This document shows positions 5,797 through 9,329 of a DNA stretch of 64,000 nt, one piece after another. The stretch covers positions 1,736,001-1,800,000 of the forward strand of contig NZ_CP009631.1 of NCBI RefSeq assembly GCF_000959445.1, given 5' to 3'. Source of the stretch: Burkholderia vietnamiensis LMG 10929. GTDB taxonomy: Bacteria > Pseudomonadota > Gammaproteobacteria > Burkholderiales > Burkholderiaceae. The first letter of the stretch is position 1; the number at the start of each line of letters is the position of its first letter. The position numbers and the translations under genes were made by a program. The notes under the pieces were generated by a model, which worked only from the letters and a program-made list of their open reading frames with translations, did not search any database and had not been told where the DNA came from.

Positions 5797-5986
5797 GTCG
5801 TCCGGCCCTTTGTATGCCGGACAGGCGGGCGCTGCAATCGATGCTGCGAGATTCGTCCGGCGCGGGTTGCTGTTCTAAGTCTGGCGGACGATTATAAACC
5901 GCTGTTTCCCCGCGTCGCGCGCATTTCGTCATCGCAATGCGCGCGACGCATGGTGCGCCGCCGCACCGGCGCGCCGGCGTGTTCGG

Positions 5987-6523
5987 CTAGAAGCCCAGCC
6001 AGCCCGCCACCACCGGCCCCAGCACGAAGCCCCAGGTCGTCACGCAGGCGAACAGCGCGATCGTCACGGCCGCACTGCCGAAGTCCTTGGCGCGTTTGGA
6101 CAGCTCGTGGCGCTCGAGCGAGATGCGGTCGATCGCGGCCTCGACGCTCGAATTCAGCAGTTCGACAATCAGCACCAGCAGCACCGACGCAATCAATAGC
6201 GCGCGCGATGCGGCCGGCACCGGTGCGAACGCGCCGGCCGGCAGCATCACCGCGGCGAGCGTGAGCTCCTGCCGGAACGCGCTCTCCTCACGGATCGCGA
6301 CGCGCAGGCCGTTCAGCGAATGACGCAGCGCGTACCACGCGCGCGTGATGCCGCGATGGCGCTTGTACGGGTTCGGCGGCAGCGGCGCGAGGCCGTCGTC
6401 GGGGCCGAGCGGCTCGGACGCGTGCGCGTCGGTGTCGGCGTGCGGCTCTTCTTCGTCGAACGGGCGATGCGTGGGTGCCGTTGCGGCAGTCGGTGAGGTG
6501 TGGTCGTTCAGGTCTCGTTTCAA
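5987..6523 (-). CDS. dgkA: diacylglycerol kinase (DgkA type), TTG start
   Basis: A 178-residue integral membrane kinase that phosphorylates diacylglycerol to phosphatidate with ATP. Conserved DgkA blocks are EESAFRQE, the VELLNSSVEAAIDR segment with the catalytic Glu, and KDFGSAAV. Three membrane helices are visible. There is no in-frame ATG before the domain. The TTG at 6521-6523 overlaps the TGA of the upstream glycosyltransferase (TTGA), which fits a coupled start. The result is a hydrophilic, acidic and His-containing N-terminal extension of roughly 60 residues not present in E. coli DgkA. As the last gene of the operon, it would recycle or drain the DAG produced or used by its neighbours. 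Confidence 0.9.
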   Translation of the reverse strand: MKRDLNDHTSPTAATAPTHRPFDEEEPHADTDAHASEPLGPDDGLAPLPPNPYKRHRGITRAWYALRHSLNGLRVAIREESAFRQELTLAAVMLPAGAFAPVPAASRALLIASVLLVLIVELLNSSVEAAIDRISLERHELSKRAKDFGSAAVTIALFACVTTWGFVLGPVVAGWLGF

Positions 6524-7554
6524 ATGGCAGCACCTTCGGCGGGCGAGTACGCAGTCTTCGGCAGCGGCTGCAGATGCGACGCGAACTGCTCGGACGCCGC
6601 GCGCCACGAGAAGCGCTCGGCCCACGCGCGCGCGGTGTCGCGTTCGATCTTCAGCGCCTCGAGGCAGGCTTCCTGCAGGTCCTCGTGCATCGCGCCCGCA
6701 TTGCCGCCGCCGAGCACGTCGATCGGGCCGGTGACGGGGTACGCGGCAACCGGCGTGCCGCACGCGAGCGCCTCGAGCAGCACGAGGCCGAACGTGTCGG
6801 TGCGACTCGGGAACACGAACACGTCGGCCGCAGCATACACCTTCGCGAGCTCGGCTTGCGACAGGACGCCGAGATAGTTCGCTTCCGGGTAGCGCGATTT
6901 CAGCTCCGCGAGCGCCGGGCCTTCGCCCGCGACCCACTTCGAGCCCGGCAGATCGAGACGCAGGAACGCCTCGACGTTCTTCTCGATCGCGACGCGCCCG
7001 ACGTACAGGAAGATCGGCCGCGCCGTGTTGAGCACCTTCGAGTCCATCGGCCGGAAGATGTCGAGGTCGACGCCGCGGGTCCACAGCACGACGTTCGTGA
7101 AGCCGAACTTCTCGAGATCCTGCTTCACGACCGGCGTCGGCGCCATCACCGCGCGCGACGGCGCGTGGAACCAATGGAGGAAGCGGTAGGTCGCCGCCAG
7201 CGGGATGCCGAAGCGCGCCTGCACGTATTCGGGAAAGCGCGTGTGATACGCGGTCGTGAACGGCAGCTTGCGCGCGCGCGCGTAGCGGCGCGCGGCGAGA
7301 CCGAGCGGGCCTTCGGTCGCGATGTGCAGCGCATCGGGCGCGAACGCGTCGATCCGCGCGCGCAGCTTGCGGTACGGCAGGATCGACAGACGGATCTCCG
7401 GGTAGGTCGGGCAGGGCACCGTACGGAATTCGAGCGGCGTCAGCATCTCGACCCGATGGCCGAGCGCGGCGAGCTCGCGCGACGTGCTCTTGAGCGTGCG
7501 TACGACGCCGTTGACCTGCGGTTCCCACGCGTCGGTGACGAGCATGATCTTCAT
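6520..7554 (-). CDS. GT4-family glycosyltransferase, candidate diacylglycerol glycosyltransferase (Agt-like)
   Basis: A 344-residue GT-B fold glycosyltransferase of family GT4. The N-terminal acceptor domain begins with a nucleotide-independent Rossmann strand (MLVTDAWEPQVNG). The C-terminal donor domain has FLYVGRVAIEKN near 182-193 and the EX7E-type motif with D253 and E261 (TDTFGLVLLEALACG). It sits between a PlcP-like phosphodiesterase and DgkA, the arrangement of plcP-agt loci in which Agt glycosylates DAG to replace phospholipids during phosphate starvation. Lipid-glycosylating activity is an inference from context; the fold is certain. There is a 29-nt gap to the upstream gene and a 4-nt overlap with dgkA. 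Confidence 0.85.
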   Translation of the reverse strand: MKIMLVTDAWEPQVNGVVRTLKSTSRELAALGHRVEMLTPLEFRTVPCPTYPEIRLSILPYRKLRARIDAFAPDALHIATEGPLGLAARRYARARKLPFTTAYHTRFPEYVQARFGIPLAATYRFLHWFHAPSRAVMAPTPVVKQDLEKFGFTNVVLWTRGVDLDIFRPMDSKVLNTARPIFLYVGRVAIEKNVEAFLRLDLPGSKWVAGEGPALAELKSRYPEANYLGVLSQAELAKVYAAADVFVFPSRTDTFGLVLLEALACGTPVAAYPVTGPIDVLGGGNAGAMHEDLQEACLEALKIERDTARAWAERFSWRAASEQFASHLQPLPKTAYSPAEGAAI

Positions 7555-7583
7555 CGCGGCTGTGTCCTGTAAGTTGGGTTGTG

Positions 7584-8522
7584 TCAGGCGGCCGCCTTGG
7601 CCTTGCGCGACGGGGCTGCGGACGGTGCGGCGCGCATCGCCGTCCAGTAGACGACCTTCAGTTCACCTTCCGTCGTCTCGACGAGCGCGGACAGGCTTTC
7701 GACCCAGTCGCCGTCGTTGCAGTACAGGACGCCGTCGATGTCGCGGATTTCGGCCTTGTGGATGTGTCCGCACACGACGCCGTCGCAGCCGCGGCGGCGC
7801 GCTTCGTCGGTCATCACGTTCTCGAACTTCGAGATGAAATTGACGGCGTTCTTCACCTGGTGCTTCAGGTACTGCGACAGCGACCAGTATTGGAAGCCGA
7901 GCCGGCTGCGGATCCGGTTGAACCATCGGTTCAGCACGAGGATCAGCGTGTACAGCGTGTCGCCGAGGTACGCGAGCCACTTCGCGTGCTGGATCACGCC
8001 GTCGAACAGGTCGCCGTGCACGATCCACAAACGTTTGCCTGCGAGCGTCGTGTGGAACGCTTCGCCGCGCACCTGGATGTCGCCGAACGCGAGATCGCAG
8101 AACTGCCGCGCGCCTTCGTCGTGATTGCCGGGGATGTAGACGACCTGCGTGCCCTTGCGCGCCTTGCGCAGGATCTTCTGCACGACGTCGTTGTGCGCCT
8201 GCGGCCAGTACCAGCCCTTCTTCAGCTGCCAGCCGTCGATGATGTCGCCGACCAGGTACAGGTATTCCGAATCGTTGTGGCGCAGGAAGTCGAGCAGGTA
8301 CGGCGCCTGGCAGCCGCTCGAGCCGAGGTGGATGTCCGACAGCCAGATCGTGCGGTAGCGATGCATCGACGATTCGGAATCGTCGTGCTGCGTCGCGTGC
8401 GCAGCGGGCGGCTCATGCGGCGACAGCGCGCCGGCCGCGGCGGCGCCGGACAGGAAGGCGGTGGCGGCGCGGGCGCCGATCGGTTGACGGAACAGTGAGG
8501 TCGCGGACGTTTTCTGGCCCAT
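7584..8522 (-). CDS. calcineurin-like metallophosphoesterase, PlcP/LpxH-related
   Basis: A 312-residue dimetal phosphoesterase. All five motifs are present: SDIHLG (62-67), GDIIDG (92-97), GNHDE (132-136), HGD (169-171) and GHIH (252-255). Such proteins are often labelled UDP-2,3-diacylglucosamine pyrophosphatase (LpxH). A subset, PlcP, instead hydrolyses phosphatidylcholine/phosphatidylethanolamine to DAG under phosphate stress. Adjacent agt-like and dgkA genes and a Pho-box-like element upstream favour PlcP. The ATG at 8522 is chosen because the Pho-box element lies 46 nt upstream. An internal ATG at 8366 would remove a low-complexity 52-residue N-terminus and leave the catalytic domain intact. 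Confidence 0.85.
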   Translation of the reverse strand: MGQKTSATSLFRQPIGARAATAFLSGAAAAGALSPHEPPAAHATQHDDSESSMHRYRTIWLSDIHLGSSGCQAPYLLDFLRHNDSEYLYLVGDIIDGWQLKKGWYWPQAHNDVVQKILRKARKGTQVVYIPGNHDEGARQFCDLAFGDIQVRGEAFHTTLAGKRLWIVHGDLFDGVIQHAKWLAYLGDTLYTLILVLNRWFNRIRSRLGFQYWSLSQYLKHQVKNAVNFISKFENVMTDEARRRGCDGVVCGHIHKAEIRDIDGVLYCNDGDWVESLSALVETTEGELKVVYWTAMRAAPSAAPSRKAKAAA

Positions 8523-8568
8523 GCATGACTCGCGCCGGTTGACATTACCGGCATTGCGCCACGCGGGC

Positions 8569-8586
8569 GTGACCATGCCATGACAG
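8569..8586 (-). promoter_or_regulatory. candidate Pho box upstream of the plcP-like operon
   Basis: On the minus strand the element reads CTGTCAT-GGCA-TGGTCAC. This matches the PhoB direct repeat CTGTCAT-N4-CTGTCAC at all 7 positions of the first half and 5 of 7 in the second. A weaker third unit with a GTC core (ACGTCTC) lies exactly 11 nt further upstream, the expected helical repeat. It ends 46 nt before the start codon. The same bases also contain a GTGAC...GTCAC dyad, an alternative reading. Confidence 0.6.
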
Positions 8587-8816
8587 TCACGAGACGTTCT
8601 TATTACTGTCGTGATTGCTTGTTTAGTCGGGGGTGGGGTGGTGTTGCGTGATTGGGCGCCCGGGTTTGGGGTGCTGGCTCGCGGGTGGCGGGACGGCCGG
8701 GCGTTTGCGGAGACCGCGTGCGGTTTCGTCAGGGGAATGTGAAGCCGGCCGCTAGCGGCGACGGAGCGGCGGGGAAGCAAAGCAGGCCGAGGAAGCGGCC
8801 CGAGCAGCTCAGCGCA

Positions 8817-9329
8817 TCAACGCGAAACCGCGACGACGCGCGTGCGCGCGAGTCGATCGTGCGGAAACTGCCGCCCGGCGTGCAGACGGGCCGCGCCGGC
8901 CCAGGCCGCGATCCACGCGGCCGCGAGCGCGAGGGTGACGGGCACCGACAGGCCGAGCAACGGATGCAGCGCGAGCGGCGGCAGGAACCACAGCCAGGCG
9001 AGCGCATAGCGCACGAGCGCGTGACCGGCGGTCAGCGGCTGGCCGTTCGACGATTCGAGCCGCAGCCGCCAAGTTTTCATCGGCAACGTCTGACCGCCGT
9101 GGGTCCAGAACCACAGGAAGTAAGCGCCGACCACGAGCGCGATCCACGCGGCGAGCAGGTCGTGATGGACGAGGCCGTTGCGCTGTTGCAGCACGACGCT
9201 GAAGGCGAGCGCGGCGAAGAACACCACGCCGAACAGCAGGACGGCTTCATACAGCATCGCGGCGAGGCGCCGGCGCACGGACGGCACGGCGTCGCTCGAG
9301 TCTTGGGTGGCTGCGGGAGCGCTCGCCAC
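8817..9329 (-). CDS. RDD family membrane protein
   Basis: A 170-residue inner-membrane protein with hydrophobic segments at about residues 26-47, 58-76 and 105-145. The RDD pattern includes the basic pre-helix segment VRRRLAAMLYE and the GQTLPMKTWRLRL loop. RDD proteins are small membrane proteins of mostly unknown or transport-related function. It is the last gene of the sigma/DUF3619/DUF3106 cluster, 6 nt after the DUF3106 stop, so it is almost certainly in the same transcript. Confidence 0.8.
   Translation of the reverse strand: MASAPAATQDSSDAVPSVRRRLAAMLYEAVLLFGVVFFAALAFSVVLQQRNGLVHHDLLAAWIALVVGAYFLWFWTHGGQTLPMKTWRLRLESSNGQPLTAGHALVRYALAWLWFLPPLALHPLLGLSVPVTLALAAAWIAAWAGAARLHAGRQFPHDRLARTRVVAVSR

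Follow-up and report, generated by a model that had tools for sequence, protein, structure and literature searches.

A probable Pho-controlled plcP-agt-dgkA operon for lipid renovation in Burkholderia vietnamiensis LMG 10929

We present here an analysis of three adjacent genes, plcP, agt and dgkA, in a window of 64,000 nucleotides (nt) from Burkholderia vietnamiensis LMG 10929 (NZ_CP009631.1, positions 1,736,001 to 1,800,000). By the window we mean this whole stretch, and coordinates count from its first letter; it sits in a genome of 6.93 Mb and 4 contigs (3.32, 2.26, 1.25 and 0.10 Mb). The original prediction saw three packed genes for a phosphoesterase, a glycosyltransferase and a diacylglycerol (DAG) kinase, and the open reading frames (ORFs) together with their Pfam families (calcineurin-like phosphoesterase, GT4 and DAGK_prokar) agree with it in both position and kind. 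In the order of transcription, the features are as follows.

8587..8606, minus strand: conserved block GTAATAAGAACGTCTCGTGA, possibly degenerate further PhoB units (18 of 20 columns invariant among 30 genus sequences)
8569..8586, minus strand: candidate Pho box CTGTCAT-GGCA-TGGTCAC (12 of 14 positions; 11-nt phasing in relatives)
7584..8522, minus strand: plcP, dimetal phosphoesterase of 312 amino acids, start ATG 8522 (PF00149/PF12850, motifs, tree)
6520..7554, minus strand: agt, GT4 glycosyltransferase of 344 amino acids, assigned to the Agt clade (published Agt motifs, identity to Pseudomonas aeruginosa)
5987..6523, minus strand: dgkA, prokaryotic diacylglycerol kinase of 178 amino acids, TTG start (PF01219, DgkA structures)
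5911..5950, minus strand: 15-bp hairpin 3' of dgkA, without a T-run, candidate operon end (fold energy)

The three genes are closely spaced, with 29 nt between the plcP stop and the agt start, and with 4 nt (TTGA) shared by the agt stop and the TTG start of dgkA. The same TTGA overlap is present in all six other Burkholderia loci examined, and single loci of Paraburkholderia, Caballeronia and Trinickia have ATGA instead; the Cupriavidus, Ralstonia, Polynucleobacter and Jezberella loci examined, one per genus, show no such 4-nt overlap of agt and dgkA. Conservation makes ATG 8522 the most likely true start of plcP: all 30 genus sequences have the N-terminal MGQK, 26 of them with the longer MGQKTSATSLFR unchanged, and ATG 8366 is missing from the other 29; a start placed like ATG 8522 also occurs in a second genus (locus L002), and a third genus (L003) does carry ATG 8366. 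This start gives PlcP an N-terminal extension of 52 amino acids, open and recognisable across the genus set, and about 57 residues of N-terminal extension precede the kinase domain of DgkA. Beyond dgkA, the stretch 5890-5990 folds with -53.5 kcal/mol (z -3.32; none of 200 shuffles as stable). A terminator scan of 5800-8830 did not report the hairpin at 5911-5950, and a simple sigma-70 scan of that region found no promoter, which carries little weight as merely 0.2 were expected.

The phosphoesterase was proposed to hold all catalytic motifs, and the five dimetal motifs SDIHLG, GDIID, GNHD, HGD and CGHIH are indeed found. On the whole, 135 of 250 Burkholderiales genomes have a match to it, including weak hits at the level of LpxH, while 126 places in 124 genomes score above 240 bits; 110 of these places form our order-level set (15 of the 16 omitted are below 300 bits). 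Of the 90 order-level proteins with an identity of 60% or more, 85 have the first of these motifs and all 90 have each of the other four. Within its own genus PlcP is found in 61 of the 61 genomes searched, and the first eleven named loci listed are from Burkholderia with 93-97% identity. One of the 61 genomes carries a second PlcP-like protein with 47% identity (G256:C6:31633-32355). As reference we used a P. aeruginosa record, annotated as a plasmid, in which genes for a glycosyltransferase and, next, an adenylate cyclase lie downstream of plcP; we take it to be PA3219-PA3218 from this gene order, PA3217 being a cyclase. The window PlcP has 53.0% identity over 236 amino acids to the PlcP of this locus. 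A Sinorhizobium meliloti match was set aside as a characterised PlcP, being a pSymB paralogue without an adjacent agt.

Public records often label relatives of this protein UDP-2,3-diacylglucosamine diphosphatase (UDP, uridine diphosphate), the name given to LpxH. As had been anticipated, however, the window protein differs from true LpxH: the LpxH model TIGR01854 gives it 34 bits against a cut-off of 190.35, a separate LpxH lies in the same genome at C3:1952704-1953357 with 227 bits, and in a tree of 30 PlcP-like and 10 LpxH proteins a long branch parts the two groups with a split support of 100. An LpxH identity is thus rejected, and the grouping with true LpxH that was to refute the original prediction did not occur. 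In this tree the characterised PlcP is the P. aeruginosa protein identified by gene order, and it falls with the window PlcP, although several nodes inside the PlcP side are weakly supported; three of 13 LpxH loci without a usable ORF were left out, and the split was read from the printed tree, a rooted check of the LpxH group having returned False as an effect of rooting. A search of PDB sequences with PlcP gives nothing closer than a weak LpxH match (best E 0.0063). By family, the window phosphoesterase is PlcP, and its phospholipase C activity is predicted; this suggests that many genes named as LpxH-type diphosphatases may be PlcP. Across the 250 genomes LpxH matches are present in 240, with 230 above the cut-off, and two of the ten genomes without a match (G015, G214) carry PlcP-like proteins at 52-53%. 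Outside the order, a 45%-identical PlcP-like protein of Parabacteroides distasonis (L109:3983-5904) is annotated UDP-2,3-diacylglucosamine diphosphatase and is followed by a glycosyltransferase gene.

For the second gene, passages of PMC8231724 describe a DAG-dependent Agt clade marked by a His104-Asp256 dyad and by the motifs GRVAxEKN and FPSxTDTFG. The window Agt has His104 in HTRFPEY, GRVAIEKN at 186 and FPSRTDTFG at 248, with the His/Asp dyad kept. By these motifs it belongs to the DAG-dependent Agt clade, with DAG as predicted acceptor and a UDP-sugar such as UDP-Glc or UDP-GlcA as predicted donor, and by analogy to Agt1 glucosyl-DAG is the likeliest product. Among 57 order-level Agt proteins, relaxed forms of the sugar motifs are present in 57 and 55, and HxRFPEY in 47. 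The identity to the glycosyltransferase beside the P. aeruginosa plcP is 52.4% over 336 amino acids, and a PDB sequence search returned generic glycosyltransferases only. A close second Agt is not evident in the genome, since the next best relative scores 44 bits.

The third protein scores 109.5 bits with PF01219 (DAGK_prokar, cut-off 22.3) and matches the structures of E. coli-type DgkA, its nearest solved relatives (best E 5.6e-26), aligning to 3ze3; conserved active-site segments are present. It is the sole kinase listed for the genome by a search covering PF01219; among the 14 order-level genomes with all three genes in order, four (G076, G225, G128, G152) have two PF01219 matches.

We then give an overall view of gene order among the relatives. 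Of the 110 order-level loci, 57 (counting the window's own) have a strong agt as the next gene after plcP. A downstream dgkA in the same direction is found in 20 of the 110, comprising 14 loci with the order plcP-agt-dgkA (own included) and six other arrangements (L160, L166, L169, L177, L179, L180), counts that are lower bounds for L001-L030, which reach no more than about 1.5 kb downstream; dgkA is divergent and upstream in two (L026, L118). All 30 genus loci have a dgkA match. Named loci were taken as the best 80 of 589, so that this set leans to near relatives, and among these 80 the triad occurs in 71, from Burkholderia, Paraburkholderia, Caballeronia, Cupriavidus, Ralstonia, Polynucleobacter and others; six have plcP-agt without a nearby dgkA (two of them Polynucleobacter) and three end too soon. 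In the same 80, agt follows plcP in 79, and the remaining one is cut by a contig end. In a class-wide search 78 of 369 genomes have Agt, and of the 29 loci examined besides our own, 23 have plcP directly upstream of agt. None of the 29 has a downstream dgkA, which instead lies upstream in the same direction in L286 and L287 and divergently in L291, L293 and L313. Therefore the triad order is seen in the order-level and named sets, and dgkA recurs beside plcP in several different arrangements, which supports a functional link; as related genomes are not independent, no probability is attached to the linkage. The recurrence also helps the plausible idea that DgkA turns excess DAG into phosphatidic acid again.

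The plcP loci without an adjacent agt also bear on what PlcP may do. The downstream gene was scanned in 10 of 47 such loci, chosen by eye, and most of them would fit a PlcP that feeds DAG or accompanies phosphorus-free lipid synthesis, by analogy to marine bacteria (PMC4796936). A glycosyltransferase of the MGDG-synthase family stands downstream in L168, a GT4 in L178, and dgkA in L160. Several further arrangements were observed. In L139 (1683-2882) a DUF3419 gene, which we take to be BtaA-like, overlaps the plcP end by 4 nt and suggests a betaine-lipid version of the operon. In two genomes of 1.3 Mb (L166:1719-2513 and L169:2619-3407) an acyltransferase that is OlsB-like by Pfam follows plcP, with dgkA within 3 kb, suggesting an ornithine-lipid version; the NCBIfam score in L166 is 164 bits, below the cut-off of 350. 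A patatin-like phospholipase gene lies downstream in L172, one of two loci (with L173) of genome G015, and its best model is a lipase of the cyclic-oligonucleotide-based antiphage signalling system (CBASS) with 128 bits at a cut-off of 200. In L153 (1911-3005) pstS lies 194 nt after plcP, physically joining plcP to the Pho system.

As to regulation, the candidate box at 8569-8586 lies 46 nt before ATG 8522 and shares 12 of 14 positions with CTGTCAT-N4-CTGTCAY, or 11 if the last must be T, in keeping with the position and match first proposed. Its two units agree at 7/7 and 5/7 positions and are flanked by weaker ones, namely the third unit that had been called weak and in 11-nt phase (ACGTCTC, 4/7) and a further CAGTAAT (5/7). 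When the 450 nt upstream are shuffled with dinucleotides preserved, 3 of 1000 rounds come to 12 matches. The genus consensus of the box is CTGTCAC-GGCA-CAGTCAC, and among the 30 genus sequences the mean column conservation is 0.956 in the box (14 of 18 columns invariant), 0.997 in the 20 nt before it, and 0.816 in the 60 columns farther upstream. The same genome has consecutive ORFs for pstS, pstB, phoU, phoB and phoR (named by eye, L192), with a multi-unit box before pstS. Among 21 genomic sites that have no more than 2 mismatches and were judged by eye from their surroundings, the pstS site is a clear Pho target, and the two sites with 1 mismatch are not obviously so.

The comparative phasing is what carries the Pho claim. 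Each locus was given the score of its best set of three successive CTGTCAY units within the 300 nt that precede the conserved core of plcP. With the units spaced by 11 nt, 56 other plcP-agt loci have a mean of 15.39; spacings of 8-10 and 12-16 yield 11.89-12.55. In the same loci, the controls give 12.39 for the reverse strand, 11.52 within the plcP gene and 11.94 for dinucleotide shuffles (sd 0.14, 20 rounds). The mean is 14.66 in 32 loci with at least 60% identity and without agt, and 14.45 in 20 loci below 55% identity, while, among the 80 named loci, the 78 whose upstream region is long enough average 15.88 at 11 nt against 12.29-13.06 at the other spacings. The box lies farther out, at about -341 to -353, in two Ralstonia loci, in Cupriavidus L253 and in the metagenome-assembled genome of L250. 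These comparisons make a strong case that Pho-box-like repeats with 11-nt phasing recur before plcP across Burkholderiales.

Taken together, and in support of the original prediction, plcP-agt-dgkA appears, with a probability that we put at about 80%, to be a Pho-controlled operon for lipid renovation. When phosphate is low, phosphorylated PhoB would bind the box at 8569-8586 and turn on the three genes. PlcP would then strip the phosphate-bearing head group from inner-membrane phospholipids to leave DAG, onto which Agt would move a sugar from a UDP-sugar, giving a phosphorus-free glycolipid. DgkA would phosphorylate the DAG unused by Agt to phosphatidic acid, so that DAG builds up less and lipid synthesis recovers on phosphate return. 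The PlcP and Agt steps are modelled on experimentally studied relatives, as described in parts of PMC8528852 and PMC9239053; for the locus itself the sequences show the genes, their families, the recurring box and the conserved gene order, from which we infer that PhoB binds and induces, what the enzymes do, which sugar is used and what DgkA is for. A fuller version, for which the balance seems even to us, would make DgkA a third arm dedicated to lipid renovation under phosphate starvation in Burkholderiaceae, where one PhoB-driven, translationally coupled operon would hold the DAG source and both of its sinks, dividing DAG between glycolipid and phosphatidic acid as a reversible switch.

Several results weigh against a Pho-controlled renovation operon. 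A genome scan with at most 3 mismatches gives 159 sites against 108 for the reversed control, for which reason a single box proves little and the scan was set aside as proof of the box. The window's box is also poorer than the genus consensus, and the stretch from the box to ATG is equally conserved (0.977), so that conservation does not single out the box. In three plcP-agt loci (L147, L149, L167) a search of 700 nt gave no good box, and runs are weak in L262 and L271, both scoring 13, as in Pandoraea L242 with 14. Downstream of plcP, the AMP-binding enzyme in L137 and a gene without Pfam match in L165 are misfits. A DAG kinase, moreover, spends ATP in remaking phosphatidic acid, which runs counter to the saving. 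The main counter-observation comes from passages of PMC7814305, which state, as data not shown, that Paraburkholderia xenovorans LB400 at 0 or 0.02 mM phosphate replaces phosphatidylethanolamine by ornithine lipids, and these passages mention no glycolipid for LB400.

Among other explanations, the one that survives best is a head-group turnover cycle, partly overlapping with lipid renovation, in which PlcP and DgkA strip heads and rebuild phosphatidic acid while the glycolipid is a side branch. We consider it rather unlikely: dgkA does follow plcP without agt in L160, 5 of the 29 class-wide loci carry dgkA either ahead of plcP-agt or in divergent orientation, and the cycle, though phosphate-neutral per lipid, would free the head group; against it, agt follows plcP in every named locus that a contig end does not cut. 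The operon might also be on at all phosphate levels, with DgkA doing ordinary DAG recycling, for example of DAG from membrane-derived oligosaccharide synthesis, and with phosphate merely modulating it. Some expression at high phosphate is to be expected of the one PF01219 kinase listed for this genome, but the 11-nt phased repeats before plcP in three locus sets speak against a constitutive operon, which we hold to be somewhat less probable still than the turnover cycle. It is quite improbable that Agt glycosylates another acceptor such as phosphatidylglycerol, which would save no phosphorus at this step; its best NCBIfam model is indeed a synthase of N-acetylglucosaminyl-phosphatidylglycerol (85 bits), yet this is far under the cut-off of 480, the same model ranks first for the P. 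aeruginosa glycosyltransferase taken as Agt1 (60 bits), and the Asp marking the Agt clade is present. Hardly any chance is left for a second LpxH in lipid A synthesis, a reading favoured by the database names and contradicted by the model score, the LpxH elsewhere in the genome, the well-supported branch, and operon partners from DAG-using families.

If the lipid-renovation reading is true, Burkholderia, Paraburkholderia, Cupriavidus and freshwater Polynucleobacter can swap phospholipids for glycolipids at low phosphate, beside ornithine lipids, and the conserved dgkA offers a clear way into how cells manage the DAG intermediate. Apart from this locus, the segment 60001-64000 of the window has a G+C content of 52.9% against 62-72% elsewhere, and is possibly acquired.

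PlcP and Agt are already known as a pair, and what is added here is the extension to Burkholderiales and the conserved dgkA arm. LpxH shares with PlcP the metallophosphoesterase superfamily and the database name, but forms a separate clade and has a separate gene in the window genome. Literature searched by titles, abstract openings and passages yielded no plcP-agt-dgkA operon and no PlcP-dependent glycolipids in Burkholderia, although a phosphorus-stress proteome of B. cenocepacia (10.1111/1462-2920.15451) may report proteins of the operon. The passages of PMC13086504 name plcP in Alphaproteobacteria, Gammaproteobacteria and Verrucomicrobia, and report Baltic Betaproteobacteria transcripts without the degradation-associated genes. 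The phrase diacylglycerol kinase does not occur in the main texts of PMC4796936, PMC9239053 and PMC8528852. For P. putida BIRD-1, the discussion in PMC5082522 treats PlcP and DagK as PHO-dependent, and its list of proteins lost in the mutant names PlcP and not DagK; its passages state no operon linkage of the two. There a diacylglycerol kinase is grouped with lipid remodelling and PHO regulation, which by analogy may lend partial support to the DgkA step, although it may be a kinase of another type. In SAR11, Methylosinus trichosporium OB3b and marine bacteria, plcP lies beside an Agt-type glycosyltransferase gene as in the window; the parts of PMC4796936 that we draw on tie PlcP to phosphorus-free lipid synthesis in marine bacteria and predict Pho boxes at plcP-agt clusters, and PMC9239053 holds mutant data for such systems. 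The closest known system is that of P. aeruginosa, where, according to passages of PMC8528852, PlcP and two Agt enzymes make monoglucosyldiacylglycerol and glucuronic acid diacylglycerol under phosphate stress. It differs in having two Agt, in its PlcP without the long N-terminal extension, and in the lack of dgkA among the annotated genes of 8.7 kb around plcP. In other respects PA3219-PA3218 (with PA0842 besides), as far as its published description goes, is the same two genes in the same order with a Pho box, at 53% and 52% identity between the window proteins and those of the locus taken as PA3219-PA3218.

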